A stretch of 64,000 bases of DNA from Candidatus Thiothrix sulfatifontis (GCA_022828425.1 CP094685.1:1860001-1924000), one strand, 5' to 3'; counted from the first letter of the stretch, positions 10,828 to 64,000 are shown. Notes: generated by a model not told the origin, from the letters alone. A program made the numbers and translations.

Positions 10828-11338
10828 CAACGCCCTGTGAAGAAGAAGACTCCCCTGCCTCTTGTAACAACGCCACAATCAGCTCCTCCGACAACCACAA
10901 CCCCGCCGCCTGTAATTGCCGAAATGCTGGCTCTGCTTTAAGCAATAATCCGCGCCGCTTCGCCAACACAATCACGCCACACGTTCCCGTCATGGAAACA
11001 TTGATACTACGCGCACAACGACGCGCAGCGGCATCATCCAGAATGGCACGATCCGCCGTCAACTCACGCGCATGATGCATAACAGCCGATTCACCCGCCC
11101 CCAAATTCCAGCGTTGGATGTCCAGCGCAACCTCGACAGGTGGCAAGCGTTGCAACCAATCCAAAGTAGGGACAATACAGGCAGCGGCATCATCCTTACC
11201 GCCATTAACAACTTCCTGCCATACCGCATCAGGCACATACACCGCTTCAAACAATTGCGGCAACAGATCATGCAATTGGCTACGGCACAAGGTAATCAAT
11301 GGTGAGGCATTAATCACCACCCGCTTAATAGAGGTCAT
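10817..11338 (-). CDS. DUF3368 PIN-like toxin component
   Basis: A 173-residue protein that starts MTSIKRVVINASPLITL, the DUF3368 form of a PIN-domain first strand with its acidic/Asn position. It continues with AVYVPDAVWQEVV, GAGESAVMHHARE and ADRAILDDAAARR, which supply the other conserved acidic residues of PIN nucleases. This group usually forms a toxin-antitoxin pair with a UPF0175 protein, and the UPF0175 gene overlaps its start by 14 bp here. It probably cleaves RNA when unopposed. A start at 11359 is possible, but MTSIK fits the family. Confidence 0.83.
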   Translation of the reverse strand: MTSIKRVVINASPLITLCRSQLHDLLPQLFEAVYVPDAVWQEVVNGGKDDAAACIVPTLDWLQRLPPVEVALDIQRWNLGAGESAVMHHARELTADRAILDDAAARRCARSINVSMTGTCGVIVLAKRRGLLLKAEPAFRQLQAAGLWLSEELIVALLQEAGESSSSQGVDGT

Positions 11339-52433: not shown

Positions 52434-52766
52434 ATGAAAGAAAAATTACAGCAATTAATGCAAGCCTTGACCAGTGAGCGCGAGGAGTTACGCGTGCGGT
52501 TGCACGTATTGGGTCTGGAGGCGCGTGAAGAGTGGGCGCATCTGGAAACCAAGTGGGATGCTATGCAGGTGCGCTTGCGTGATACCGGCTGGGAATTGAA
52601 CCTGAAAGCAAAAGAGGAAATTCACGATTTGGGGGAAGATGTGGATAAACTTCAGCATAAAATCAGCGACAAGGTGAAAGATGTGCGCTTGGAAGTGGTT
52701 GAGGAATTACACGATTTGGGCGAGGAATTGTCTGACCTGTACCAGAAAATCCGGCGGCATTTTTGA
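52434..52766 (+). CDS. Coiled-coil protein, 110 aa
   Basis: A highly charged helical protein (MKEKLQQLMQALTSEREEL, EVVEELHDLGEELSDLYQKI) with no membrane segment, consisting almost entirely of heptad-like coiled coil. AGGAGG lies 7 nt before ATG, one of the strongest ribosome-binding sites in the window. It overlaps the start of the channel gene by 4 bp, so the two are translated together. It may be a cytoplasmic accessory of the channel; that is inference. Confidence 0.75.
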   Translation: MKEKLQQLMQALTSEREELRVRLHVLGLEAREEWAHLETKWDAMQVRLRDTGWELNLKAKEEIHDLGEDVDKLQHKISDKVKDVRLEVVEELHDLGEELSDLYQKIRRHF

Positions 52767-53770
52767 ATCGAGTGAACCTGTTGAGGGCGCGTCGGTGGTT
52801 GTATCTGGCGCTTGAGGCACAAAAAGGCGGGGTATGGGCAACATTTCTGAACCATTTTTTAATGGTATTGGTCGTGGCAAATGTCGTTGCCGTGGTGGTG
52901 GAGTCTGAGCACGCTATTTACCAGGCATACGCACCGTTTTTTGAGTGGTTTGAAGTGTGTTCGGTGGCCATTTTTACGCTGGAATACGTATTACGGGCTT
53001 GGGTTTGCGTGGAATCTGAGCACGTTGCGTTTCAGCATCCGATGCGTGGGCGCGTTCGTTATTTGTTGTCGCCGATGGCACTGGTCGATTTGGTGGCGGT
53101 ATTGCCTTTTTACCTCAGTTTGTTTTTCGGGTTAGTGGATTTACGCGTGTTGCGTAGTTTGCGTTTGTTGCGCTTATTGAAATTGACCCGCTATTCGCAT
53201 TCTCTGGCGCTGTTGTTGGCAGTATTGCGACAAGAGGCGGATAACTTGATCTCGGCTTTGTTCATTTTGTGCATGTTGGTGTTGTTGTCCGCAACGGGTA
53301 TTTATTTAGTGGAAGGTCACGTTCAACCGGATAAATTCGGTAGTATTCCCCGCGCATTGTGGTGGTCGGCGGTGACGGTGGCAACGGTCGGTTATGGTGA
53401 TGTGGTGCCGGTAACGTTAGTGGGAAAGGTGTTTAGTGGCACTATTATCATCACCGGCATTGCAGTTGCAGCGTTGCCTGCCGCTATCCTTGCCTCCGGC
53501 ATGATCAATGAGTTGAAGCGTCGCCGTGAAAGTTTCCGTTTTGAACTGGTACGTGCCATGGAAAATGGCAAGCTGGATTTTGGCGGCCTGCGTTATTTGG
53601 AAAAAATGCGCGTCACCATTGGCATTAGCCGGGCGGATGCGCGTTTGGTGTTCGAGGAAGTTAAGCAGGAAACGCGCTTGCAGACGCACACCAATTGCCC
53701 CCATTGCGGGCAGGCGCTGCTGATTAAACATCCGCCGGGGCACATTCATGTGAGTCTGGCGAAGCGGTAA
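52763..53770 (+). CDS. Voltage-gated-type potassium channel
   Basis: 335 residues. Six TM segments are visible; S4 is rich in Arg/Lys (RVLRSLRLLRLLKLTRYS), and the pore loop has TVATVGYGDVVPV, with the TVGYGD selectivity filter intact. The C-terminal tail includes a CPHC knuckle. It carries K+ across the inner membrane and is gated by voltage. The TTG start at 52763 overlaps the coiled-coil gene; a GTG at 52772 is also possible. It is the last gene before the integrated island. Confidence 0.9.
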   Translation: MNRVNLLRARRWLYLALEAQKGGVWATFLNHFLMVLVVANVVAVVVESEHAIYQAYAPFFEWFEVCSVAIFTLEYVLRAWVCVESEHVAFQHPMRGRVRYLLSPMALVDLVAVLPFYLSLFFGLVDLRVLRSLRLLRLLKLTRYSHSLALLLAVLRQEADNLISALFILCMLVLLSATGIYLVEGHVQPDKFGSIPRALWWSAVTVATVGYGDVVPVTLVGKVFSGTIIITGIAVAALPAAILASGMINELKRRRESFRFELVRAMENGKLDFGGLRYLEKMRVTIGISRADARLVFEEVKQETRLQTHTNCPHCGQALLIKHPPGHIHVSLAKR

Positions 53771-53792: not shown

Positions 53793-53867
53793 ATGAAACA
53801 AGTTAAGGTTCTCTTTGTCTGCATGGGCAGGATACGGCAAGCAGATTTAGCCCTTTTCTATCAATAG
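53793..53867 (+). pseudogene. 5' remnant of the low-molecular-weight protein tyrosine phosphatase gene
   Basis: Codes MKQVKVLFVCMG, the same first 12 residues (Val/Ile4 apart) as the intact gene start at 63672, then diverges to RIRQADLALFYQ and a stop. The break is inside the catalytic P-loop, right after TGCATGGGCA. It is the native 5' end, cut off by the island. Confidence 0.85.
53820..53829. other. Left attachment core (attL)
   Basis: TGCATGGGCA, identical to 63699-63708. It lies in the phosphatase P-loop codons Cys10-Met11-Gly12. Flanking similarity extends 27 bp to the left only, as expected if the crossover is in this core and the element carries a mimic of the gene's 5' end. Confidence 0.7.
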
Positions 53868-53900
53868 CTTACCGTTAATTAGTAAGCTATTTGTAAGCTA
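53863..53900. repeat. Arm-type repeats beside attL
   Basis: A perfect 10-bp inverted repeat (AATAGCTTAC at 53863-53872, GTAAGCTATT at 53882-53891) is followed by a third half, GTAAGCTA (53893-53900). Location between attL and the integrase gene suggests recombinase arm-binding sites; a transcription terminator is an alternative. Confidence 0.5.
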
Positions 53901-53909
53901 ATAATTATC

Positions 53910-54980
53910 TCAAATCTCTAAAGTAAGCCAATCATCACCCCGCACATCGTCATATCTCTCAGTCGAACGGGAGTCCTTGTGACCTAGCAGCGTCTTAACG
54001 TCAACACCCTGCTTTCTATAAAGCCGTTCGGATAAAGAGCGAACTTCATAGAGCGTCGCCGGTTGCTTGCCTTCCTCCCATGCAATACCCGAACGTCTCA
54101 CTATCTGGGTGAATTCGCGTGTGATGCGGTAAGGGTGCATAGGCTTGCCCTTGCCCATGTTGCCAGCGTCGGAAACGTGGTGGAGCAAATACGGCGATTC
54201 AATGCCATCAGTGAAGCACTTGTTAATGGTGTCTTCCAATGTCCAGCCTAGAGCGTCTAATTTCAGCGTCACGGGGATTTTGATACGAACATCGGTCTTT
54301 GTGCGCTGAACCTGCAAATATCCATCTACAGGCTTTTGCATGGCGGTCAATTCCGTTGCGCCCGCGTGACTTGTCAGGATCGCAAGTTCTAGCGCCCGCT
54401 GCATCCAATCATCAGCGAGTGAGTAAATCGCACTGAACTGTTCCAGCGATAACCGCGAACGTTTGGCGGTAGCAGTCGGGTTACGGGTCAAGCTTGCAGG
54501 ATTATGGTTAGCCTTCAGCCATCCCGTAGAAACGGCTTCAAGGAAAAGATCAATCAGCACCGAGCGGATAGTTTGAGCCATGCGGTTTTTACCTTGGCTC
54601 TTGAATTCGCTTAGCAAGTCAGTGATTGCTTCAGCATCAACGTCTTTCAATTGCCAGCTACCAAAGCGCGGCATTAGCACGTTATCGAGAATGTGGTGAC
54701 GGCTTCGCAGGGTGTTAGGCTTTAGATTTCTTTCCTGTAAAGCCTCTTTGAACTTCTCCACGAAAGCACTGAAGGTTTTACCCTTGCCCTCTATGCGTTC
54801 AAATAGCGCGGTCTCACGGTCTTTCGGGTGTGCAGCTTGCAGACGATGCAACACCTTGCAAGCGGTTACAAAGTCGCTCCCTAAGCCGTGACGCTTCCCA
54901 GTAACGGGATGGATGCACGAATAGTAAGTTTTACCATTCGCGCCTTTTGCATGGTGTAATCCCGCTGGTTTGCGCTTCAT
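53910..54980 (-). CDS. int: Lambda-type tyrosine integrase with altered catalytic residues
   Basis: 356 residues, close to lambda Int in layout. It has an N-terminal arm-binding domain (HHAKGANGKTYYSCIHP), a core-binding domain and a C-terminal catalytic domain. Lambda-like blocks are GYLQVQRTKTDVRIKIP and TLYEVRSLSERLYRKQG, then LLGHKDSRSTERYDDVRG. Arg314, His334 and the nucleophile Tyr343 are present. However, the first catalytic Arg is absent (TSHAGATEL stands where lambda has TGQRVGDL), and the His before Arg314 is Tyr311. It is placed next to attL and overlaps xis by ATGA. Activity may be reduced or lost. Confidence 0.9.
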   Translation of the reverse strand: MKRKPAGLHHAKGANGKTYYSCIHPVTGKRHGLGSDFVTACKVLHRLQAAHPKDRETALFERIEGKGKTFSAFVEKFKEALQERNLKPNTLRSRHHILDNVLMPRFGSWQLKDVDAEAITDLLSEFKSQGKNRMAQTIRSVLIDLFLEAVSTGWLKANHNPASLTRNPTATAKRSRLSLEQFSAIYSLADDWMQRALELAILTSHAGATELTAMQKPVDGYLQVQRTKTDVRIKIPVTLKLDALGWTLEDTINKCFTDGIESPYLLHHVSDAGNMGKGKPMHPYRITREFTQIVRRSGIAWEEGKQPATLYEVRSLSERLYRKQGVDVKTLLGHKDSRSTERYDDVRGDDWLTLEI

Positions 54981-55165
54981 GAACTCTCACCTGTGAATGG
55001 GCAGTAGTATTTTGCATTTTCGAGAACACGATATGTCCGACCATGCTTTACAGGTTGCGGCTGAATGCGCCCTTCCCTTGCCCACAGACGCAAGGTGTTA
55101 ATGCTTGGCACTTGATCGGAATAGCGAGACTCTGCCCATTTTTCCAAGGTCAATAATTTTTTCAT
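54977..55165 (-). CDS. xis: Excisionase (lambda Xis family)
   Basis: A 62-residue winged-helix protein that starts MKKLLTLEKWAESRY. NTLRLWAREGRIQPQPVKHGR matches the lambda Xis pattern with its recognition helix and wing. It overlaps the int start by ATGA. It would bend DNA at the attachment site and favour excision with the integrase. Confidence 0.8.
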   Translation of the reverse strand: MKKLLTLEKWAESRYSDQVPSINTLRLWAREGRIQPQPVKHGRTYRVLENAKYYCPFTGESS

Positions 55166-55238
55166 TGTTTTGCTCTCCATGCTGGCAAGGTCATCTTTTC
55201 TCTGAAAAGCATCTTCATGCTGTTTTCAACGAACCAGC

Positions 55239-55377
55239 TACACACACAAAGCGAGACTACACACTTACACACTTTACACACCCCTAAAGGGGAGTGTGTA
55301 AAAGTGTGTAGGTGTGCTGATAGTCCAGTGTGTAAAAGTGTGTAATTGTGTGTAGTAAAGTGTGTAGGTAGTGTGTA
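55239..55377. repeat. Iteron-like GTGTGTA array
   Basis: The heptamer GTGTGTA occurs seven times on the plus strand (55294, 55304, 55328, 55338, 55348, 55360, 55371), mostly 10-12 bp apart, a helical phase. Four TACACAC copies (the same on the other strand) lie at 55239, 55258, 55266 and 55275. The two sets are separated by CCCCTAAAGGGG, so the region can form a strong hairpin. It lies between the RepA-like gene and xis, where a replication origin or regulatory site is plausible. No gene of its own is seen in 55166-55382. Confidence 0.7.
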
Positions 55378-55382
55378 GCTCA

Positions 55383-56615
55383 TTATTTAACCACCTCAAC
55401 ATATCCGTTCTGGCATTTGATTAGATTTTGCTCTATCAATTTGTCTGTGATTCGTTCGGCAAATGCTGAAGGTGTTAGGTATCGGTAATTTACTTCAGAA
55501 TTGTTTTTGCACGATTCAATCCAGTGAGTGAGCATAACTTGCGCCTGATCTGGATTATGACCACTAAGCTCTAAGTTCCGGCGTTGCGCATCAATCAAGC
55601 TATGCAGCACTACCATTGCCGCCTTTGGGTTCTTCCCGCTGGCAACTTTTGAGCCTTTACTAGCTTTGGGTGGCGCATCAGTTGCAACAGGAACAAGCGT
55701 TGTTTCCCATCCATCTTCCGGGCAGTCTGGATCGGCATAAATTCCGGGTAGCTCAACTCGCTTGAATGTAAATCCCATAGGCAATGGTTTGGCAGCGTCC
55801 TTCATTTCGGTGCAGGTGAGGCTTTTAACGGACTGCATATCGTCACCATCCCCATCTAAGAGATAAACGCAATCTGCATTCTTGAGTAGCGTATTTGAGC
55901 CATTCATCCGCGTTTCATTGCGGTTCGTGTGATGAATAACCACGACTGCGCAATTGAACCTATCTTTGATTTCATCAGCCGCCGCAATATATTTTGCTGC
56001 ATCAACACTGCTATTTTCATCACCATCAAGAGTGCGGATATATGTATCAAGGAAAATACAACTAACATCAGGGTATCCGTGTTCTTGCATAGCATTTATT
56101 ACAGCGTCGATTATTGCATTTTGATCTGTTGGCAGTTTTAGCACTTGCTCTGACAGTAGTAAGTTAGCATCATCCGCTGATACATCATTGTTATTGAGCC
56201 ATCCCTGAAACCTTTTCAGGATGTTGTTATTCCCTTCCCCGGAAATATAAAGAACTGTTCCCGGTTGCTTGATTTCTTTGCCGTGCCAATCTTCGCCAGT
56301 TGCAATAGACATAGCCCAATCAATGCCAATAAATGTTTTTCCAACTTTTGGAGGTGCATGTAAAAAAATGACACTTTTTGATGGAAGTGTTTTTTTAATA
56401 AGCCATTCCATCGGCTTAAGATTCTGCAATGCGCTTGATAGCGTTTTCAGCAATACCTTTTTGCTGGATTTTGGTGGTGTATCAGAAAGCGACTCATAAG
56501 CAGGGTCTTCGTAATAGCAGTGATCGGGCATATCATGCTTATGGTCTTTGCACTCATAAGCAGGCTGATAAAATCCTGATTCAATTGCAGCAGAGATAAC
56601 GTCATCATTAAGCAT
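55383..56615 (-). CDS. RepA-type AAA helicase of the island
   Basis: A 410-residue RecA-fold ATPase. Walker A is APPKVGKT (residues 87-94), Walker B is CIFLDTYIR (about 186-194), and VVVIHHTNRN follows as in RSF1010 RepA and related helicases. A C-terminal helical tail follows (CKNNSEVNYRYLTPSAFAERI). It overlaps the primase gene by 8 bp. It should unwind DNA for replication of the excised element. Confidence 0.85.
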   Translation of the reverse strand: MLNDDVISAAIESGFYQPAYECKDHKHDMPDHCYYEDPAYESLSDTPPKSSKKVLLKTLSSALQNLKPMEWLIKKTLPSKSVIFLHAPPKVGKTFIGIDWAMSIATGEDWHGKEIKQPGTVLYISGEGNNNILKRFQGWLNNNDVSADDANLLLSEQVLKLPTDQNAIIDAVINAMQEHGYPDVSCIFLDTYIRTLDGDENSSVDAAKYIAAADEIKDRFNCAVVVIHHTNRNETRMNGSNTLLKNADCVYLLDGDGDDMQSVKSLTCTEMKDAAKPLPMGFTFKRVELPGIYADPDCPEDGWETTLVPVATDAPPKASKGSKVASGKNPKAAMVVLHSLIDAQRRNLELSGHNPDQAQVMLTHWIESCKNNSEVNYRYLTPSAFAERITDKLIEQNLIKCQNGYVEVVK

Positions 56616-57321
56616 GATTCACCTCAGGCTTTAGGTACTCTCCATAGGATTCAATGGAATGGGTGATTAGCTCTTTAACCAGTGCGATTTCATCAATACT
56701 GGGGCGAAACACATAACGACCGTCTACTTTATTCGTCTGGCGTTGCAGGTATTCACGGTGCTTAATTGCGTCGATTAAATCCTCTGCAATCGTCTTGATA
56801 TTGTAATCACGACGCGCTTGCTCATGCTTGCGCTGCGCATCTAATGCCATTTGTGCAGATTGTTTTTCGGCAATTGCCCTGATTTTATCGCGCTCTTTAT
56901 TGTCCATTTGCGATAAACCTAAAACATCAGCCACGGCTTTTAATTGCTGTTTGCTATCCCATCCGAAAACATGCCCTAGCAAACTAAATCCATCGCCTGA
57001 CTGTTGATCGCCACCGCCCCCGCAAAACCACTTGCCAGTATTGCCATAATCAGCCATTACTCTAAAGCGGTCTTTGCCACCGCATCCACAACAAGCCGTA
57101 TGCTTACGGTAATCCGTTGATATGATTTTTACACCAAGGGCGGTATGGATGTATTCCCACTGCCCATAAGCAGCGACACGAACATCAGAGAAACTAAGCT
57201 GATTATTTGAATCAGGTTTGCTATAATTGCGGCTGGAAGTTGAACATATCGCCCCTTCATTTTTGCGAGTGCTGGGGCTTTCGCTTTTTTGGGATTCTTC
57301 CCTGTCGATTGCTGCCATCAT
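56608..57321 (-). CDS. P4-like zinc-ribbon primase protein
   Basis: 237 residues. A zinc-ribbon primase-helicase N-domain: HTACCGCGGKDRFRVMAD, then GKWFCGGGGDQQSGDGFSLLGHVFGW, the Cys/Gly-rich pattern of the P4 alpha-type Prim_Zn_Ribbon. The C-terminal half is a long charged helix region and has no Toprim domain, so it is a short primase accessory, perhaps working with the RepA-like helicase. It overlaps alpA by ATGA and the helicase gene by 8 bp. Confidence 0.8.
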   Translation of the reverse strand: MMAAIDREESQKSESPSTRKNEGAICSTSSRNYSKPDSNNQLSFSDVRVAAYGQWEYIHTALGVKIISTDYRKHTACCGCGGKDRFRVMADYGNTGKWFCGGGGDQQSGDGFSLLGHVFGWDSKQQLKAVADVLGLSQMDNKERDKIRAIAEKQSAQMALDAQRKHEQARRDYNIKTIAEDLIDAIKHREYLQRQTNKVDGRYVFRPSIDEIALVKELITHSIESYGEYLKPEVNHA

Positions 57322-57506
57322 TGGTTAGCACCTCCATTGTCCAGCCACTCATTAATGACACTTTCGCGCCATCCAATCCGGCGAAGAGATACCATTATCG
57401 GCTTTGGGAGCTTGCCACTTTTCATCAAGCGGATAGCAGTCCATTTGCTAAATCCGAGCTTTTCTTTCAGTCCGGCATAGCCATGTATTAATTGATCGTT
57501 TTGCAT
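57318..57506 (-). CDS. alpA: AlpA-family DNA-binding regulator
   Basis: A 62-residue winged-helix protein from MQNDQLIHGYAGLKEKLGFSK, then RLMKSGKLPKPIMVS and IGWRESVINEWL, the AlpA pattern (helix-turn-helix, wing, tryptophan). AlpA regulators activate integrase or replication genes in P4-like satellites. It starts the replication operon. A frame opens earlier at 57581, but MQNDQ begins the family domain. Confidence 0.82.
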   Translation of the reverse strand: MQNDQLIHGYAGLKEKLGFSKWTAIRLMKSGKLPKPIMVSLRRIGWRESVINEWLDNGGANQ

Positions 57507-57665
57507 GTTTTTAACACTCAGGTTGCATAAAGTAAGCAAATGATTGCAGGCTCTTGCAAATGGGTTCGTGGAGGTTTCCATTTGAGGCTGTTTTTCTGCT
57601 AATTCGCGTTTTGTTCATTTGCCATTAAGAAATGGCAAGGTTTTCACCCTGCCACCTCCGTTTTG

Positions 57666-59261
57666 CTACGCTTTACGCCTCCTAGACTTCGCTTTTAACG
57701 CCTCCAATCGCGTTGGGTCTTTCGCATTGTGCCAATCATCCTTACAAGTGGATTTGCAGAACGTGTGCCATTTGTTCGCCTTGCGGAAGTTTGCGCCGCA
57801 TTGTGGGCAGTCAACATAAGTCCCTGCTTTCGCCTCAGCAGCTTGCGTGTACGCCGCTTCGTTGATGCGTGTATCTACACGTTCGTGTAAGGGCTTAGAA
57901 TCGCCTACACGTTCGTGTAAGGGCTTCTCTGCTGATGCGTGTACGCTCTCCTTACGCGCTACCGGCGCATAGTCCGATGGGGTAGGGCGTGGGTTCGTAG
58001 GCAAGATGATTTCCTGCGCGTATTTCCGCCGGTTTTCTTCCAGCAATGAGGTTTCACGATCTTTAGCAACCTGACCTGATTGGATAAACCCGAACGTTCT
58101 TTCTGGTTTCGCTGGCAATTCGATTTCTGAATCTTGCCACCTGAAGCGACTTGCAGTAGCAGGATTGCCAAAGCCGATTTTAGAATCAGAATACGGCTTG
58201 CCCTTAGTGCGAATTTCATAACCATCATCATTGAACGTTTCTGGATTATTCGGGGTAGGGCGGTTTAATTCATCCTTCGATAAATCAATAACACGGTCAT
58301 CTGTAAAATCATCTGGTGAAAATGTTTTGCCAGTCATTTTGAAATATGAACCGTTCAAATCCTTCAGCATATCGGTGTAATGGCGAATGTTTTTCAATGT
58401 TCTGGACTCATTGAAAATGGTCGTGACGTGTATCAGTTCCAGTAGCAATGCCGCTATTAGGGTGATAATCATCACGCCACCATCAATAGATGTATTGAAA
58501 ATCTGACTAGCGAATTTAGCAGGCGGGATAGCCTGTTCTGTTCGTTCGGCTTTCATCAATTCATGGTTAACCGCTTGCGCCTTAGAGGTTGCTTCAGCAT
58601 TGCTTGCGCGTTCAGCATTAGCCTGTTCCTTTAAAGAATCAACCATGCCTTTGTCACCATTACAATGAAACTTTGTTTCAGGATTGGTCTTTTTAGCTTG
58701 TTCGAGTTTAACCAAACAAGCGCTATAAGACTTTTGAGCCTTAGCAATAGATTCAGCCATTCCAGACGCGCCACTATTAACAATGGTTGCACTGGTGAGT
58801 GATTTCCCCATTGCGCTATTATCCGCTGCATGAAAACTCTTTACCTGCAAATTGGTACTTGCTGAAATGCTTTCGTAGTAAATGCCGCTAACGATCGCCA
58901 GCGCAATAATGAAATAGATAATGGTTTGAATTTTCCTACGGTCATTAAAGCCATCTTTCGCTATCGCCTTGTAATTGAAGTGCTTCGCCAGACTTAACGC
59001 CGCTGGTACGCTTAGAGTGACGATAATCACCCATAGCATACCCACAACATTGGTTTTATTGGCAAACAAATAATCTTGCAAAGCGAATACCGACACGCCA
59101 GCGAACAATACGCTAGTGAATGACAGGTAAATGAAAAACGTCGCAATACTCCATATTGACTGAGAAGTTTTAATGCCGTGCAAATCAGCCTTGTGCTGTT
59201 CCAATTGCGCGGTTGAACTGGTGATCTCTTGAAAAAGAGGGTAAGCGTTATTCAGATTCAT
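57666..59261 (-). CDS. Membrane protein with C-terminal zinc finger (531 aa)
   Basis: From MNLNNAYPLFQEITSS. Four TM segments lie in the first 320 residues (IATFFIYLSFTSVLFAGV, GMLWVIIVTLSVPAALSLA, TIIYFIIALAIVSGIYYES and GVMIITLIAALLLELIHV), with a coiled-coil periplasmic or cytoplasmic loop between. The C-terminal 50 residues are a zinc-finger (YVDCPQCGANF, HTFCKSTCKDDW) with a basic tail. No known family. It starts 2 nt after the preceding membrane gene stops, so they form an operon. A role in surface exclusion or superinfection immunity is a guess. Confidence 0.7.
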   Translation of the reverse strand: MNLNNAYPLFQEITSSTAQLEQHKADLHGIKTSQSIWSIATFFIYLSFTSVLFAGVSVFALQDYLFANKTNVVGMLWVIIVTLSVPAALSLAKHFNYKAIAKDGFNDRRKIQTIIYFIIALAIVSGIYYESISASTNLQVKSFHAADNSAMGKSLTSATIVNSGASGMAESIAKAQKSYSACLVKLEQAKKTNPETKFHCNGDKGMVDSLKEQANAERASNAEATSKAQAVNHELMKAERTEQAIPPAKFASQIFNTSIDGGVMIITLIAALLLELIHVTTIFNESRTLKNIRHYTDMLKDLNGSYFKMTGKTFSPDDFTDDRVIDLSKDELNRPTPNNPETFNDDGYEIRTKGKPYSDSKIGFGNPATASRFRWQDSEIELPAKPERTFGFIQSGQVAKDRETSLLEENRRKYAQEIILPTNPRPTPSDYAPVARKESVHASAEKPLHERVGDSKPLHERVDTRINEAAYTQAAEAKAGTYVDCPQCGANFRKANKWHTFCKSTCKDDWHNAKDPTRLEALKAKSRRRKA

Positions 59262-59263
59262 GA

Positions 59264-59659
59264 TTAAACCCCCATCCATGAAATTGTGTACAAACCGACG
59301 ATGTATAAAACACGTAGCAAGCTGTTTGCCGGTGTTGTCCACAGTGTTGTGGTTATCGCCAGTGAAGCGAATACCGGGAACAATTGATAGACCGCGTAAA
59401 TGTGGTTATCGCTTGCCATCACGTTTGAGAAGTTCACGGCATAGAACAGAACCGCCAGTAAGCCGATTCCATTGGTAACGTGCTTGAACAGTTCCGCACG
59501 TACCGCAAAATCAGCGACGTGACGGAATAGGGCAAACATCAAGGGGAATACCGTCGCCCCTGTGGTGATAAGTTCCCAGACGTTGCCAGCCGTGCCAATG
59601 TGACCATTGGTTTTTTCCAGCTTGGCAGGGGATACGGTTAGGTGAGTGGGGTTGCTCAT
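59264..59659 (-). CDS. Small membrane protein of the island
   Basis: About 131 residues from MSNPTHLTVSPAKLEK. Three or four TM segments (ELITTGATVFPLMFALF, NGIGLLAVLFYAVNF, YQLFPVFASLAITTTL, RVLYIVGLYTISWMGV). It overlaps the upstream gene by ATGA. No family recognised. Probably a partner of the 531-aa membrane protein just downstream. Confidence 0.68.
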   Translation of the reverse strand: MSNPTHLTVSPAKLEKTNGHIGTAGNVWELITTGATVFPLMFALFRHVADFAVRAELFKHVTNGIGLLAVLFYAVNFSNVMASDNHIYAVYQLFPVFASLAITTTLWTTPANSLLRVLYIVGLYTISWMGV

Positions 59660-60009
59660 TGCTGCACCTCCAACAAATCCGCACGGACTAGCGCCCACAA
59701 GGTTGTCAGGTTTTCAATTTCCTGATTCATGCCAGCAATCGCGGTTTGTTTCGTTGAAAATCGGGTGAAGAATTGCGACAAAATGGCGGCATGGCTTTTC
59801 ATGCGAGCGGTAATGGTAAGAAGCCCTTGGATGCGCTCTTGCGTAGTGAGTCGTGCGTATGGTGAGATTTCAGGCTGTGTGCCGACCATCGCCATAGCAA
59901 AATCCGCAAGAATGCGTTGATTTTCTGGACTCATCAGGGGAATTGCCTGAATGATGCGTGTTTCTAACTGACTGTAGTTTTCAGTTTCAGTTGTGTTAAG
60001 ATTTGCCAT
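59656..60009 (-). CDS. Helical protein of the island, 117 aa
   Basis: Starts MANLNTTETENYSQLETRI with AGGAG 7 nt before it. A helical, uncharged core (PLMSPENQRILADFAMAMVG, IQGLLTITARMKSHAAILSQF) without TM segments. It is the first gene of the three-gene set with the two membrane proteins. Function unknown. Confidence 0.65.
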   Translation of the reverse strand: MANLNTTETENYSQLETRIIQAIPLMSPENQRILADFAMAMVGTQPEISPYARLTTQERIQGLLTITARMKSHAAILSQFFTRFSTKQTAIAGMNQEIENLTTLWALVRADLLEVQQ

Positions 60010-60090
60010 TGCTGGACTCCTAAGTTATTGCATTAAGTGGGTTTTCAGTAATTGGCTGTTTGGTGCTTCCAACACCTTGCAGCCCTTAAG

Positions 60091-60112
60091 CGCCCCTTCA
60101 TTGGGGCGTTTT
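60091..60112 (+). terminator. Terminator-like hairpin facing the plus strand
   Basis: CGCCCC (60091-60096) and GGGGCG (60103-60108) form a 6-bp stem with a TTCATT loop, followed by TTTTCGTTT. It lies just downstream of the minus-strand Arc gene in a region without plus-strand genes, so it would stop antisense transcription coming from the left. It also separates the Arc gene from the next operon. Confidence 0.5.
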
Positions 60113-60115
60113 CGT

Positions 60116-60280
60116 TTATGCCGTTTGTGCTTTCTGTTCTGCCTCCCTTGCCATTGCTTCTTTCAGGATGCGGATAAGTTCCGCGTTCATGCTTCTATCG
60201 TTGGTCTTCGCCCGATCTGTCAGCCATTGGTGAACAGGTGCGGGCATTCTTGCTTGCGTTTTTTTGTCTGGTTCTGTCAT
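60116..60280 (-). CDS. Arc-family ribbon-helix-helix repressor 1 (54 aa)
   Basis: A 54-residue protein: MTEPDKKTQARMPAPV, then HQWLTDRAKTNDRSMNAELI, then RILKEAMAR and an alanine-rich tail. This is the Arc/Mnt ribbon-helix-helix pattern (strand, helix A, NRSxNAE turn, helix B). It is divergent from a second Arc-like gene across a 127-bp region with repeated AT-rich palindromes. It probably represses one or both genes and so sets the lysogeny state of the island. Confidence 0.75.
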   Translation of the reverse strand: MTEPDKKTQARMPAPVHQWLTDRAKTNDRSMNAELIRILKEAMAREAEQKAQTA

Positions 60281-60311
60281 TGCCAAAATTCCAATATAGT
60301 TAAAATAGATA

Positions 60312-60371
60312 CTAAATTAGTTAGTGAGAATACGGTATTAGTTATTTTTGAGTTTGTCAACTAAATTAGTT
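60312..60371. promoter_or_regulatory. Repeated operator-like sites between two Arc genes
   Basis: CTAAATTAGTT occurs at 60312-60322 and again at 60361-60371, each nearly palindromic (AACTAA/TTAGTT), with a partial ATTAGTTA near 60337. Spacing between the full copies is 49 bp. They fall between the two divergent starts, where each repressor could block both promoters. Confidence 0.6.
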
Positions 60372-60407
60372 GTAGAATGCGGCATAAATTCAATTAGGCG
60401 TTACCGG

Positions 60408-60638
60408 ATGGCAAAGCAAGACGACTTTTTCAAGATGCAGGTGAGAATTCCAATGGAGCTGTACGAACAACTCAAAGAATCATCTGATGAAAATTTCAGG
60501 AGCTTGAATGCGGAAATTATCTATCTGCTGTCGGTTTGCATGGGCAACAAGGCAACCTCAGCCACGCCGGATGAAGTGCGTAGCATCATCAGAGAGGAAC
60601 TAGGCACGGCAATAAAAAAAAGCCTGAATAAAGTTTGA
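60408..60638 (+). CDS. Arc-family ribbon-helix-helix repressor 2 (76 aa)
   Basis: From MAKQDDFFKMQVRIPMEL. The helix A-turn-helix B region is YEQLKESSDENFRSLNAEIIYLLS. The C-terminal 30 residues (VRSIIREELGTAIKKSL) may be a dimerisation helix. It is the only plus-strand gene in the middle of the island, divergent from Arc 1. The pair resembles the Arc/Mnt arrangement of phage P22. A frame opens at 60348, but MAKQ fits the family and sits after the operators. Confidence 0.75.
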   Translation: MAKQDDFFKMQVRIPMELYEQLKESSDENFRSLNAEIIYLLSVCMGNKATSATPDEVRSIIREELGTAIKKSLNKV

Positions 60639-60656
60639 CTGATTTTTACAGTTAGC

Positions 60657-60716
60657 AAACGTGCGTGATTCTTTGAGAGTTGCGCGGGCAATCGCCCCAA
60701 AGATTCGCCCACGTTT
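60657..60716. other. Large imperfect inverted repeat
   Basis: The 21-nt arms at 60657-60677 and 60696-60716 match at about 17 positions (both begin AAACGTG when read inward, and share TCTTTG), with an 18-nt GC-rich spacer. The fold could be a small structured RNA, a single-strand origin or a packaging/protein-binding site. Nothing else is seen in 60639-60887 apart from the terminator at 60849-60872. Confidence 0.45.
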
Positions 60717-60848
60717 ACTCAAAATGAGGAGGTGTGATTAGTCCAGGAACTGCATAAGAAAACGCTAATATTCCATAGGGGGGGGTATGTGCGATAAACC
60801 AATGATCTAGTTAAGAAATTCGGGATTAAGATTCGGTACGCTAGACGC

Positions 60849-60872
60849 AAAAAAGCCGGAATTTATCCGGCT
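60849..60872 (-). terminator. Rho-independent terminator of the phage-like gene group
   Basis: AGCCGGA (60854-60860) pairs with TCCGGCT (60866-60872). On the minus strand the stem is followed by TTTTTT. It lies after the 55-aa and TerS-like genes that read toward it. Confidence 0.82.
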
Positions 60873-60887
60873 CTTGGTGGTGGTGTC

Positions 60888-61055
60888 TTAGCGTTTTGGT
60901 TTAGCCATCTGCAACAGAATCACCGCTATTGCCGCTAATAGCTTGTTTTGCGGGGTATCCTCTTCGGGGACACGCTCCATGTGACCGAGCGCCTTATCGA
61001 GTAGCCCGAATGCCACTTTGTATCCTTCAAACCCTTGAATTTCTTTCGTGTTCAT
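60888..61055 (-). CDS. Hypothetical protein, 55 aa
   Basis: Starts MNTKEIQGFEGYKVAFGLLD and ends LLAAIAVILLQMAKPKR. Its ATG overlaps the stop of the TerS-like gene (ATGA), so the pair is translationally coupled. No family recognised. Mostly helical and soluble-looking, with a hydrophobic patch near the C-terminus. Confidence 0.6.
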   Translation of the reverse strand: MNTKEIQGFEGYKVAFGLLDKALGHMERVPEEDTPQNKLLAAIAVILLQMAKPKR

Positions 61056-61558
61056 GATTTCGCCGCTCCTTTCGCCGCGTTAATTTGCTGCTCAAGCATC
61101 ACGCCTCTGCCGACTAATGCCGCTTCTTTAACCGCCACTTCTTCCGAACCGATTTGATACAGCATTTCGAGCCGTTCATAATTGACGGGTCGGTATTCCG
61201 CCGTTTCAATGCCAAGCTCTCGCAATGCCAGCAATTCAACAATCTTAGGTAATGCCATGCCTTGCGCTGAAATCTCTAGCGCACAATCAGTTGCGGTGAG
61301 TTCGCCACTCTTCAACCGTAAAATGATTGGTTCAAGGTCTGCATCGTTCATGACTTTAGGTTTTCCATAGCCACGATCTAGCAAGCTATTTGCAGCTATC
61401 GCCCGTTGGGGTGATTCAGGGTTATTGAGAAGCTCCACAAGCGCATTAATAGCGTTTTCCGTATGTTGCCTAGCCAATTCACGAACGTTGATTGTAGCGG
61501 CATTCAATGCGCCCCTCTTGCGTCCTGCACCGTCACGTTTTCCGCCTCGCTTTTCCAT
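61052..61558 (-). CDS. Phage-type protein resembling terminase small subunits
   Basis: 168 residues. It starts MEKRGGKRDGAGRKRGALN, a basic AT-hook-like segment common in phage small terminase and related proteins. The helical part ALVELLNNPESPQRAIAANSLLDRGYGKPK is also phage-typical. The C-terminal half (LGIETAEYRPVNYERLEMLY) is unassigned. A TerS role is possible but unproven. It overlaps the downstream 55-aa gene and follows the 185-aa gene within one operon. Confidence 0.55.
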   Translation of the reverse strand: MEKRGGKRDGAGRKRGALNAATINVRELARQHTENAINALVELLNNPESPQRAIAANSLLDRGYGKPKVMNDADLEPIILRLKSGELTATDCALEISAQGMALPKIVELLALRELGIETAEYRPVNYERLEMLYQIGSEEVAVKEAALVGRGVMLEQQINAAKGAAKS

Positions 61559-61588
61559 TTTGAAAAAATCCTCTGGAATGATTGTTTA

Positions 61589-62146
61589 TCAAACGCCGCA
61601 ATTCAGGCTGTATAAGTTCTGCGGTCGCTGGCAACCGCTACCAAAGTCTTCGTAAGATTCAAATAGTTGTTGGGCATTCGGTGGCAAGTCGCTTGCTAGT
61701 CCCGTTTCAGAAAATGACACCCATTCAGCTAGTTCGCTTTCCAGAGGTTCGAGCTTTTGCAGTGATTCGCTAGCGTCGTAATCAGCAATAATCCGCCCGG
61801 CTTCTTCGGCTTGAATGCCAGAATCAACCAATGCTTGACGCTTGCGTTCAACAGCCGCTTGACCGTTGGTAATCTCGCTACGCAAACCACGTATTGAGCT
61901 TGGGAGTTCGTGAAACTGTCGATGTGTGCGAATCCCGATGAACTTATCAATCAATGCCTTACGGTCATCAATATCAAGCGTCAAAGCTTCGAGTTCCTGC
62001 GATCTTGCTTCGATAATGCCGTCAACACCTTTCGTAGCAACATTGTATTCCGCCAGCGTGTTACGGCATTGGTGCAGGGAATCCAGCTTGCTGGTGAGTT
62101 CGTGACGTTTCAGGCAAACGCCCTTGAATGATAATGGTGCGGTCAT
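61589..62146 (-). CDS. Coiled-coil protein of the island, 185 aa
   Basis: Starts MTAPLSFKGVCLKRHELTSK. A long helical region (VDGIIEARSQELEALTLDI, AAVERKRQALVDSGIQAEEAG) is followed by an acidic, aromatic C-terminus (ESYEDFGSGCQRPQNLYSL). It resembles phage hypothetical proteins but has no named domain. First gene of the three-gene operon ending at the terminator at 60849-60872. Its leader shares TTTGATAAAC with that of the next gene. Confidence 0.6.
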   Translation of the reverse strand: MTAPLSFKGVCLKRHELTSKLDSLHQCRNTLAEYNVATKGVDGIIEARSQELEALTLDIDDRKALIDKFIGIRTHRQFHELPSSIRGLRSEITNGQAAVERKRQALVDSGIQAEEAGRIIADYDASESLQKLEPLESELAEWVSFSETGLASDLPPNAQQLFESYEDFGSGCQRPQNLYSLNCGV

Positions 62147-62226
62147 TTTTAAAATCCAGTTTGAAATAAGCCACCATTTTGAATGTTTATCAAAGCGGGA
62201 TTTAGGCGGGTTTCCTTGCCCGTTGG

Positions 62227-62322
62227 GGTTTTGTCAGTTTTGGCAGTTCGACACAGACACACTTTCCCGTTTTTCTGGTGCTAGATTGCCTGAAAATTAG
62301 GTTTTGTCAGTTTTGGCAGTTC
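62227..62322. repeat. Two 23-bp direct repeats upstream of the phage-like operon
   Basis: The same 23-bp sequence (contains TGTCAGTTTTGGCAG, a near-palindromic TGTC...GGCA element) occurs at 62227-62249 and 62300-62322, 73 bp apart. They lie between the operon start at 62146 and the recombinase terminator, so operator or origin sites are plausible. No gene is seen in 62147-62415. Confidence 0.65.
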
Positions 62323-62364
62323 TACGGTGAGGCACTTTTGTGTTTTTTCTGTGAATGACGGACA

Positions 62365-62388
62365 CAAAAAAGCCGGATTTCTCCGGCT
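62365..62388 (-). terminator. Rho-independent terminator of the second recombinase
   Basis: AGCCGGA (62371-62377) pairs with TCCGGCT (62382-62388), followed on the minus strand by TTTTTTGTG. The stem is almost the same as that at 60849-60872. Confidence 0.82.
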
Positions 62389-62415
62389 CTTGCTTAGTGT
62401 AGGGTAGGGCAGGGA

Positions 62416-63369
62416 TTACAGAAACGAACTTCCGGCATGGTCTTTGAATAGTTCCGCGTTCCGCACGTAGCCTTTCACTGTCTGTACTGACTTATGGCGC
62501 GATACATCCATAATCTTGAACAGGTTAGCGCCCGCTTCCGCTGCACTGGTGATGAATCCCGCCCGCAATGAATGCCCGCTAAAATCATCAGGATTCAAAC
62601 CAGCCGCTTCAGCGTAACGCTTCACGATAGCAGCAATGGATTTGTCGGTGATTGCCTGATCGCGGGTCTTGTCGCTTTTGGTGATAGGTCTGAATAATAC
62701 GCCGTCACTAATGCCAGCCGATTGCAGGTAATCTTTCAGGATGCCGCATACATCCAGCTTGCCGCCGTAGATAGCGATAACATGCCCTTCACCCTCTTGG
62801 TCGGTCTTACTCTTGCGAATCGTGACTCTTGCGCCATCTTGCACAAACTCAATATCTGACACCTGCAAAGCTACCAGTTCCGAGCGACGGAAAGCGCCAG
62901 CAAACCCTAACAACAAAATAGCCTTGTCACGCTTGCCCTGTAGCGTCTTTGTGTTGCATTGAGCAATCATCTGATAAATCTTATCCACGGTTGCCGCTGC
63001 TTTCTTTTCGACCTTAGCACCGACATTGCGCTTAATGCCTTTCAGTGTGGCACTCACCAGCTTGTCGCCAGTCGGTGAAGTCATTCCCGCCGCTTCATGT
63101 GCATAGCGAATTGCAGCAATGCGCCGATTTAGGGTTGAAGGCGAAACACCGTCATTAGCCTGATGTGCCAGAAAGTCGGCAATGGTAGCGGGTGATGCTG
63201 GCATGGCTTCCAAAGACCGACTATCGCACCAACTGACAAAAATAGTCAGGTCACTACGGTAAGCCTTGCGAGTGGATGCCGCTGTGGATTCTGCGACAAA
63301 GTGCCGTGTTTCATCACTGATAGTTTGTGTTGCCAGTGAGTTGCTGTTTGTGGTGGTCAATGTGGTCAT
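62416..63369 (-). CDS. Tyrosine recombinase, second (complete catalytic set)
   Basis: 317 residues. The N-terminal SAM-like domain has AYRSDLTIFVSWCDSR. The catalytic domain has all residues: Arg161 in FRRSELVAL, the HSLRAGF motif (His266, Arg269), His292 in SRHKS and Tyr301 in VKGYVRN. It is a XerC/D-like or integron-like integrase, distinct from the lambda-type int at the other end. It sits next to attR with its own terminator. With int apparently damaged, this one may drive integration; which enzyme acts at the phosphatase site is not known. Confidence 0.92.
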   Translation of the reverse strand: MTTLTTTNSNSLATQTISDETRHFVAESTAASTRKAYRSDLTIFVSWCDSRSLEAMPASPATIADFLAHQANDGVSPSTLNRRIAAIRYAHEAAGMTSPTGDKLVSATLKGIKRNVGAKVEKKAAATVDKIYQMIAQCNTKTLQGKRDKAILLLGFAGAFRRSELVALQVSDIEFVQDGARVTIRKSKTDQEGEGHVIAIYGGKLDVCGILKDYLQSAGISDGVLFRPITKSDKTRDQAITDKSIAAIVKRYAEAAGLNPDDFSGHSLRAGFITSAAEAGANLFKIMDVSRHKSVQTVKGYVRNAELFKDHAGSSFL

Positions 63370-63387
63370 TTCAAGCCTCTTTATTAG

Positions 63388-63411
63388 TTCCGAGAATATA
63401 CATTATCGGAA
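63388..63411. promoter_or_regulatory. Inverted repeat upstream of recombinase 2
   Basis: TTCCGA (63388-63393) and TCGGAA (63406-63411) flank 12 bp of AT-rich DNA just before the recombinase start. It may be an operator or recombinase-binding site. Confidence 0.4.
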
Positions 63412-63671
63412 GTAATAATATATATTGGTGTAAGTTGTGTCAATGCGTGTCAATAGGTGGCTTTATGGTTCATTCCTGAATGAGTGGGTAATTGGAAGTT
63501 TTAGTACAGGGTGATTGATTACAGTGAGAGGATGCAGGATGCTATGATTTAACCTAGATTCAGGCGAAACGCATTTGTAAAAAATCTTGTAAGTACCTGT
63601 TTTTGTTAGTGCGTGAATGTAAGTTTTACAGTGTTTTTCAGGTGGCTTTTTTAGTATAAGTGGTTGATTTT
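63412..63671. other. Island end, likely promoter of the restored phosphatase gene
   Basis: AT-rich sequence without a gene between recombinase 2 and the phosphatase start. It includes TGTGTCAAT and CGTGTCAATA repeats near 63437-63452 and TTTTTAGTATAAG shortly before the ATG. As element DNA it would now supply the promoter for the phosphatase gene; no clear -35/-10 pair can be fixed. Confidence 0.4.
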
Positions 63672-64000
63672 ATGAAACAAATTAAGGTTTTATTCGTTTG
63701 CATGGGCAATATCTGTCGTTCACCCACGGCGCAAGGCGTGTTCGAGCGTTTGGTGCAGGCGCAAGGCTTGGCAGATCGCATTCTGATTGATTCGGCGGGC
63801 ACACACGCGTACCACATCGGCAGTTCCCCGGATAAGCGGTCGCAAGCAGCGGCAAAACATCGTGGGCTGGATTTATCGGGGCAGCGAGCACGTAAAGTGA
63901 CCGCAGCCGATATTGAGGAATTTGATTATGTGCTGGCAATGGATCGTGCAAATTTAGAGGATTTACAGGATTTGGTTGTGGCGTCACCGCCTGAACGGGT
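63672..64000 (+). CDS. Low-molecular-weight protein tyrosine phosphatase (partial, runs off right edge)
   Basis: 109 codons are in the window. MKQIKVLFVCMGNICRSPTAQG gives the C-x5-R-S P-loop (Cys10 to Arg16-Ser17), followed by ILIDSAGTHAYHIG and EFDYVLAMDRANLEDL; the DP-type general acid region lies beyond the edge or near it. It dephosphorylates protein tyrosine and often regulates polysaccharide tyrosine kinases. The first 12 codons come from the island side of the attachment core, so this is a hybrid gene. The first 12 codons differ from the displaced native copy by one conservative residue. Confidence 0.9.
   Translation, partial: MKQIKVLFVCMGNICRSPTAQGVFERLVQAQGLADRILIDSAGTHAYHIGSSPDKRSQAAAKHRGLDLSGQRARKVTAADIEEFDYVLAMDRANLEDLQDLVVASPPER
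63699..63708. other. Right attachment core (attR)
   Basis: TGCATGGGCA in the phosphatase P-loop codons 10-13, identical to 53820-53829. To its right, the native gene continues; to its left, the element-borne start does. Confidence 0.7.

Follow-up and report, generated by a model that had tools for sequence, protein, structure and literature searches.

A 9.9-kb element in the P-loop codons of a Thiothrix tyrosine phosphatase gene, carrying a substitute 5′ end for the gene

In a Thiothrix genome, the gene of a low-molecular-weight tyrosine phosphatase (LMW-PTP) was found split after codon 12 by an element of 9,879 bp. The window, a stretch of 64,000 nucleotides of Candidatus Thiothrix sulfatifontis (GCA_022828425.1, CP094685.1:1860001-1924000), contains two copies of the phosphatase start, 9,879 bp apart, and the element is bounded by cores at 53820-53829 and 63699-63708. 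Judging from the comparisons below, this is very probably an integrative element whose Int and Xis recombined its attP into an attB within LMW-PTP, the 5′ end of the gene being replaced by that of the element.

The left copy (53793-53829, ATGAAACAAGTTAAGGTTCTCTTTGTCTGCATGGGCA) begins about 22 bp downstream of an ion-channel gene and is followed by element DNA; the phosphatase ends there after codon 12 and one base, leaving a 24-codon stub closed by TAG at 53865-53867. The right copy (63672-63708, ATGAAACAAATTAAGGTTTTATTCGTTTGCATGGGCA) is followed by the remainder of the phosphatase, and the element's own ATG and 12 codons restore a 163-codon ORF, complete beyond the window, with the P-loop CMGNICRS intact and a Pfam LMWPc match at E 7e-31; GTG at 63660 is an alternative start in this frame. 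The two copies differ at 5 positions in 36 bp, four of them silent (two in one Leu codon) and one Val/Ile, and the repeat reaches base 37, as the A after GGC is present in both. Searching 237 bp around the left end against the whole 3.69-Mb genome by blast gave two places only, the second with 86% identity over 43 bp (E 2e-7). The sequence-only reading had proposed that the native start at 53793 is severed after codon 12 and that the start and 12 codons at 63672 rebuild the ORF; sequence, blast and Pfam LMWPc agree on this, and its count of silent and Val/Ile differences was reproduced.

Table 1. Features of the element and its flanks, in window coordinates.
Feature	Position	Strand	Basis or remark
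Ion-channel/potassium-channel gene (Ion_trans), host; natively ~22 bp before phosphatase	52763..53770	+	Pfam PF00520 E 1e-34
attL: severed native phosphatase 5′ end, 12 codons and one base	53793..53829	+	nearest G001/G009 native starts, 2 differences
Left 10-bp core TGCATGGGCA at catalytic Cys codon	53820..53829	+
P′ arm, three GTAAGC arm-type repeats: 53867-53872 (-), 53882-53887 (+), 53893-53898 (+)	53830..53909	.	44 bp from core
Lambda-type tyrosine integrase (Int)	53910..54980	-	Pfam arm-binding, SAM-like, catalytic domains; lambda Int E 5e-50
Excisionase (Xis), overlaps int	54977..55180	-	Pfam Exc E 7e-15; PHROG excisionase
AAA_25 helicase-like replication protein	55383..56615	-	Pfam/PHROG
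Primase-type zinc-ribbon protein	56608..57321	-	Pfam/PHROG
AlpA-type regulator	57318..57581	-	Pfam Phage_AlpA E 2e-8
558-residue uncharacterised protein, also in G011, G009, G002 elements	57666..59342	-	C-terminal PHROG match only
Arc-like ribbon-helix-helix protein	60116..60286	-	Pfam
Arc-like ribbon-helix-helix protein, divergent from 60116..60286	60348..60638	+	Pfam; 100% identical in G011 element
168-residue uncharacterised protein	61052..61558	-	phrog_15261, unknown function
185-residue uncharacterised protein	61589..62146	-	82% identical in G011 element
Second tyrosine recombinase, XerC/D type, beside attR (named XerR here)	62416..63369	-	Pfam; relatives on plasmids
Imperfect palindrome, two 16-nt arms, 6-nt spacer; candidate XerR site or operator	63381..63418	.	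same architecture upstream of 10/11 XerR loci
Promoter-like TTGACA-17-TATTAT for XerR	63415..63443	-	kept in G011
Candidate extended -10 TGCTATGAT toward phosphatase	63540..63548	+	consensus match only; in both phosphatase elements, absent from DUF808 element
P arm, two GTAAGT arm-type repeats (63589-63594, 63619-63624), ends directly at ATG	63566..63671	+
attR: element-borne start codon, 12 codons, core 63699-63708; rebuilds phosphatase	63672..63708	+
LMW-PTP gene, runs past window, total about 163 codons	63672..64000	+	Pfam LMWPc

Two congeners, G001 and G009, have one uninterrupted phosphatase directly behind the channel gene (96% identical); the start of this phosphatase resembles that at 53793, and the 63672-type leader is absent from the phosphatase locus of both. 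These empty sites show that the insertion is real, and the opposite arrangement, an uninterrupted gene starting as at 63672 with no match at 53793, is excluded. Thiothrix lacustris DSM 21227 (G011) carries a second, diverged element at exactly the same base, which also bears out the proposal that an island was inserted inside the phosphatase codons. The phosphatase gene was found in 15 of the 16 genus genomes searched (the window's own counted), and its target codons are kept in all 14 congeneric genes examined besides the window's own; two of the 15 phosphatase-bearing genomes carry an element there.

The integrase and XerR hold the same places in both phosphatase elements, with 94% and 85% identity, respectively, whereas the middle genes share only about 45-50% protein identity and the attachment arms differ by about 5%. 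The low divergence of the arms against the high divergence of the central genes suggests more than one transfer or an exchange of modules. One Arc-like regulator (window 60348-60638; L042:10653-10940) is 100% identical between the two elements and its neighbour genes are far more diverged; this too suggests module exchange.

From attL, the element encodes int, xis, the AAA_25 protein, the primase zinc-ribbon protein, AlpA, the 558-residue protein, small unknowns, the two Arc-like regulators, two unknowns and XerR. No capsid gene was recognised in the scanned element ORFs (14 by Pfam; by PHROGs the set without the four small ORFs 59264, 60116, 60348 and 60888), no relaxase or conjugation gene among the 14 element ORFs by Pfam, and no defence cargo by PADLOC in the element. 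The gene set resembles that of PICI: int, a regulator of the AlpA type and genes for primase and replication are present, and capsid genes are absent from the ORFs scanned. The element is probably phage-satellite-like or otherwise non-autonomous. Relatives of Int at E ≤ 1e-40 were found in none of 369 class-level genomes besides the window's own, and at E ≤ 1e-20 only distant lambda-type integrases appeared elsewhere; viral contigs gave no relative, and phage records at most 37% identity.

Integrases of this group are found at no fewer than three different sites. In G009, 15-bp repeats (CGGTGTAGCATACGC) upstream of a DUF808 gene flank an element whose Int is 89% identical, and the corresponding site is empty in G001. 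This element (L043:8240-8320, L048:9905-9925) cuts the DUF808 gene off from its upstream DNA. A more distant relative (Int 53%; L067:370-403, 11136-11170) is flanked by repeats of 22 bp and 11 bp, seemingly at the end of an ABC-transporter gene. The integrase group would thus use 5′, upstream and, probably, 3′ gene ends.

The active site of Int was examined in an alignment of five Thiothrix integrases, lambda Int and 11 other integrases. Int matches the lambda Int profile over positions 19-357 (E 5e-50), arm-binding domain included, and Xis and P/P′ arms are present as in lambda. However, it differs from lambda in lacking the full catalytic R-K-H-R-H plus Tyr set: in all five Thiothrix relatives Arg-I (lambda R212) is replaced by Ala with a one-residue Gly insertion (window Ala206) and His-II (H308) by Tyr (window Tyr311), and Lys228, Arg314, His334 and Tyr343 are retained. 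All five share an invariant arginine, R226, placed two residues ahead of the catalytic Lys; this position is Gln or His in all others, and none of the 11 aligned outgroup integrases has the arginine. The substitute arginine of the CTnDOT integrase (IntDOT) reportedly has the same spacing to its catalytic lysine. As related in PMC8138268, citing Kim et al. 2010, IntDOT resembles the Thiothrix Int in that Arg-I is missing from its usual place, and a downstream arginine substitutes for it; IntDOT, however, falls outside the lambda branch. The chances seem about even that the Thiothrix enzymes form a branch of lambda-type integrases with a relocated Arg-I, in which the otherwise near-universal first arginine gave way to Ala206 and a one-residue insertion, and the new invariant R226 arose before Lys. 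An Int structure predicted from five sequences was of low quality (mean pLDDT 53) and gives no basis for placing R226 relative to the active site; a PDB search recovered lambda Int only with poor superposition. The loss of Arg-I and His-II would normally suggest a dead enzyme, though close relatives occupy several sites.

Because identical blocks stand at both ends of the 37-bp repeat, the ownership of the two copies is not readable from the repeat alone. The DUF808 element of G009, whose repeat gives an unambiguous 15-bp core, was used for comparison, and its arms align with those of both phosphatase elements. GTAAGY is the arm-type repeat of both P and P′ arms. The distance from the P′ arm to the core is 44 bp in all three elements, and that from the P arm is 71 bp in the G009 element and 76 bp in the phosphatase elements. 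This shared geometry identifies the core here as TGCATGGGCA and assigns the right-hand 12 codons to the P side and so to the element; the proposals of a core at the catalytic Cys codon and of a right-hand 5′ end belonging to the element were both borne out. Element DNA in common with G009 runs to TTGATTTT, with the start codon immediately next. The leader thus belongs to the element, and the coding part is DNA of host type that was captured. A decayed phosphatase start was also looked for in the DUF808 element and rejected, as the 25 bp between its P arm and core were no closer than shuffles (p 0.78).

A crossover at the end of the 37-bp repeat that contains the start codon, with the right-hand codons as host DNA and the left copy as the element's, appears highly improbable. 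Both copies do contain TTTATGAAACAA, a 12-bp identical block spanning the ATG, and the native phosphatase is 16% diverged from that of G001, so that with 2 (left) and 5 (right) differences in 36 distance alone decides neither. Such a crossover would nevertheless break the arm geometry of the G009 element, exact at P′ and 71 against 76 bp at P, and the native genes of G001 and G009 resemble the left copy more than the right one. Somewhat less improbable, though still unlikely, is a remnant, with the element dead and the duplicated start left from one old insertion; the Int without canonical Arg-I and His-II and the small cargo, mostly of unknown function, would fit this. Yet every gene is open, at least three sites are in use by the related integrases, and the arms have diverged from those of the T. 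lacustris element by only 5% (7/140 and 4/80) with central genes at about 45-50% identity. A gene duplication or an assembly error, which the second phosphatase start 9.9 kb away could bring to mind, has practically no probability left: the genome is a single contig, attachment arms flank the element together with int and xis, an independent occurrence lies at the same codon in another species, and the empty sites in relatives already refute it. Integration at TGCATGGGCA is the reading kept here. The sequences directly show the insertion and where it lies, the core, the geometry of the arms and the restored ORF, as well as a second use of this site by a diverged element.

The captured codons appear to have a history of their own. 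Between the window and T. lacustris elements we counted 7 differences in 140 positions of the P arm, 4 in 80 of the P′ arm and 8 in the captured 37 bp, the last having p 0.0004 at a 5% rate and p 0.02 if the faster rate of int codons is assumed. In G011 only one base separates the element copy from the host copy, and in the window the element copy has 5 differences from its own host, the closest native gene being that of G006 (4 differences). It seems that hosts and elements have exchanged the captured codons, or that these were picked up repeatedly. The block GATTTTATG is common to the element leader and several native leaders, and may be a natural joint for exchange of the captured part.

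XerR, the element gene nearest attR, is transcribed away from the phosphatase, so phosphatase transcripts must either start within the terminal part of the element or arise by read-through. A single good sigma-70 match, TTGACA-17-TATTAT, is present there and faces XerR, and no convincing sigma-70 promoter toward the phosphatase (+ strand) was found in the element end. A promoter argued from conservation alone was rejected: the block from 63566 to the ATG is also in the G009 element, which does not adjoin a phosphatase, and the conserved upstream block consists mostly of attP arm DNA. In the element leader, AAGTGGTTGATTTT replaces the AGGAAG-like Shine-Dalgarno sequence that is native in G001 and G009. 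We infer that the phosphatase is transcribed from inside the element. The sequence-only reading had put the phosphatase under an element promoter; the gene is indeed cut from its normal upstream DNA, and the promoter stays putative, since the strong conserved one points the opposite way and the upstream block is mostly attP arm. IMEVchUSA3 keeps dusA expressed, at a lower level (PMC8409611), and by analogy with this measurement a lower phosphatase expression is plausible.

Upstream of XerR we found a palindrome with a consensus near TTAACTTCCGATAA-N6-TTCTCGGAAGTTAA (arms of 13-16 nt, 6-nt spacer). It is kept in 10 of the 11 XerR loci examined (window 62416-63418; L042:12788-13788; L080-L085, L087, L088), those of other genera at 35-38% protein identity included, and is likely a resolution site or an operator. 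XerR relatives occur on at least 5000 plasmid records. In the G009 element a serine resolvase (L048:10247-10840, Pfam) sits in the slot of XerR at the end opposite int, suggesting that both enzymes serve the resolution of element multimers.

On the reading preferred here, lambda-type Int and Xis would recombine attP with an attB in the conserved P-loop codons of the chromosomal LMW-PTP gene, with the crossover inside TGCATGGGCA. The host start and 12 codons would stay at attL, and the P arm of attP would bring an equivalent start and 12 codons, so that the phosphatase stays one ORF, read from element DNA and parted from its usual channel-gene neighbour. The copied codons may persist as hosts need a working phosphatase, and Int and Xis are presumably active.

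Two features of known 5′-capture elements were found here: an insertion in the 5′ coding end, relatives having the site empty, and an element-supplied start with N-terminal codons in frame. ICE SXT is described as inserting at the 5′ end of prfC and supplying a new start (Hochhut and Waldor 1999, as cited in PMC8409611); it is conjugative and about 100 kb, whereas the present element has another target and 9.9 kb, with no conjugation genes detected by Pfam and a putative promoter. The dusA islands likewise insert in the 5′ end of a conserved gene, supply new 5′ coding sequence and leave the host 5′ end at the other junction (PMC4482086; PMC8409611). They differ in target and in their altered N-terminus of 35 residues, against LMW-PTP with 12 codons and a 10-bp core here; with this target, the present integrase falls outside the dusA-specific family. 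The 5′-end capture claimed at the outset was thus borne out, and it is not new in kind, as SXT in prfC and the dusA islands are already described as using it. A limited search of the open-access literature gave no report of integration into LMW-PTP; as far as found, this is a new target for a known strategy.

With this finding, the gene of a signalling enzyme joins the few whose 5′ ends are captured and replaced by islands. The empty sites, the pair of diverged elements sharing one codon and the sister element inserted elsewhere form a natural set in which target switching and start capture can be tested. The consequence for the host is that a tyrosine phosphatase can be detached from its normal operon and put under the control of a mobile element.
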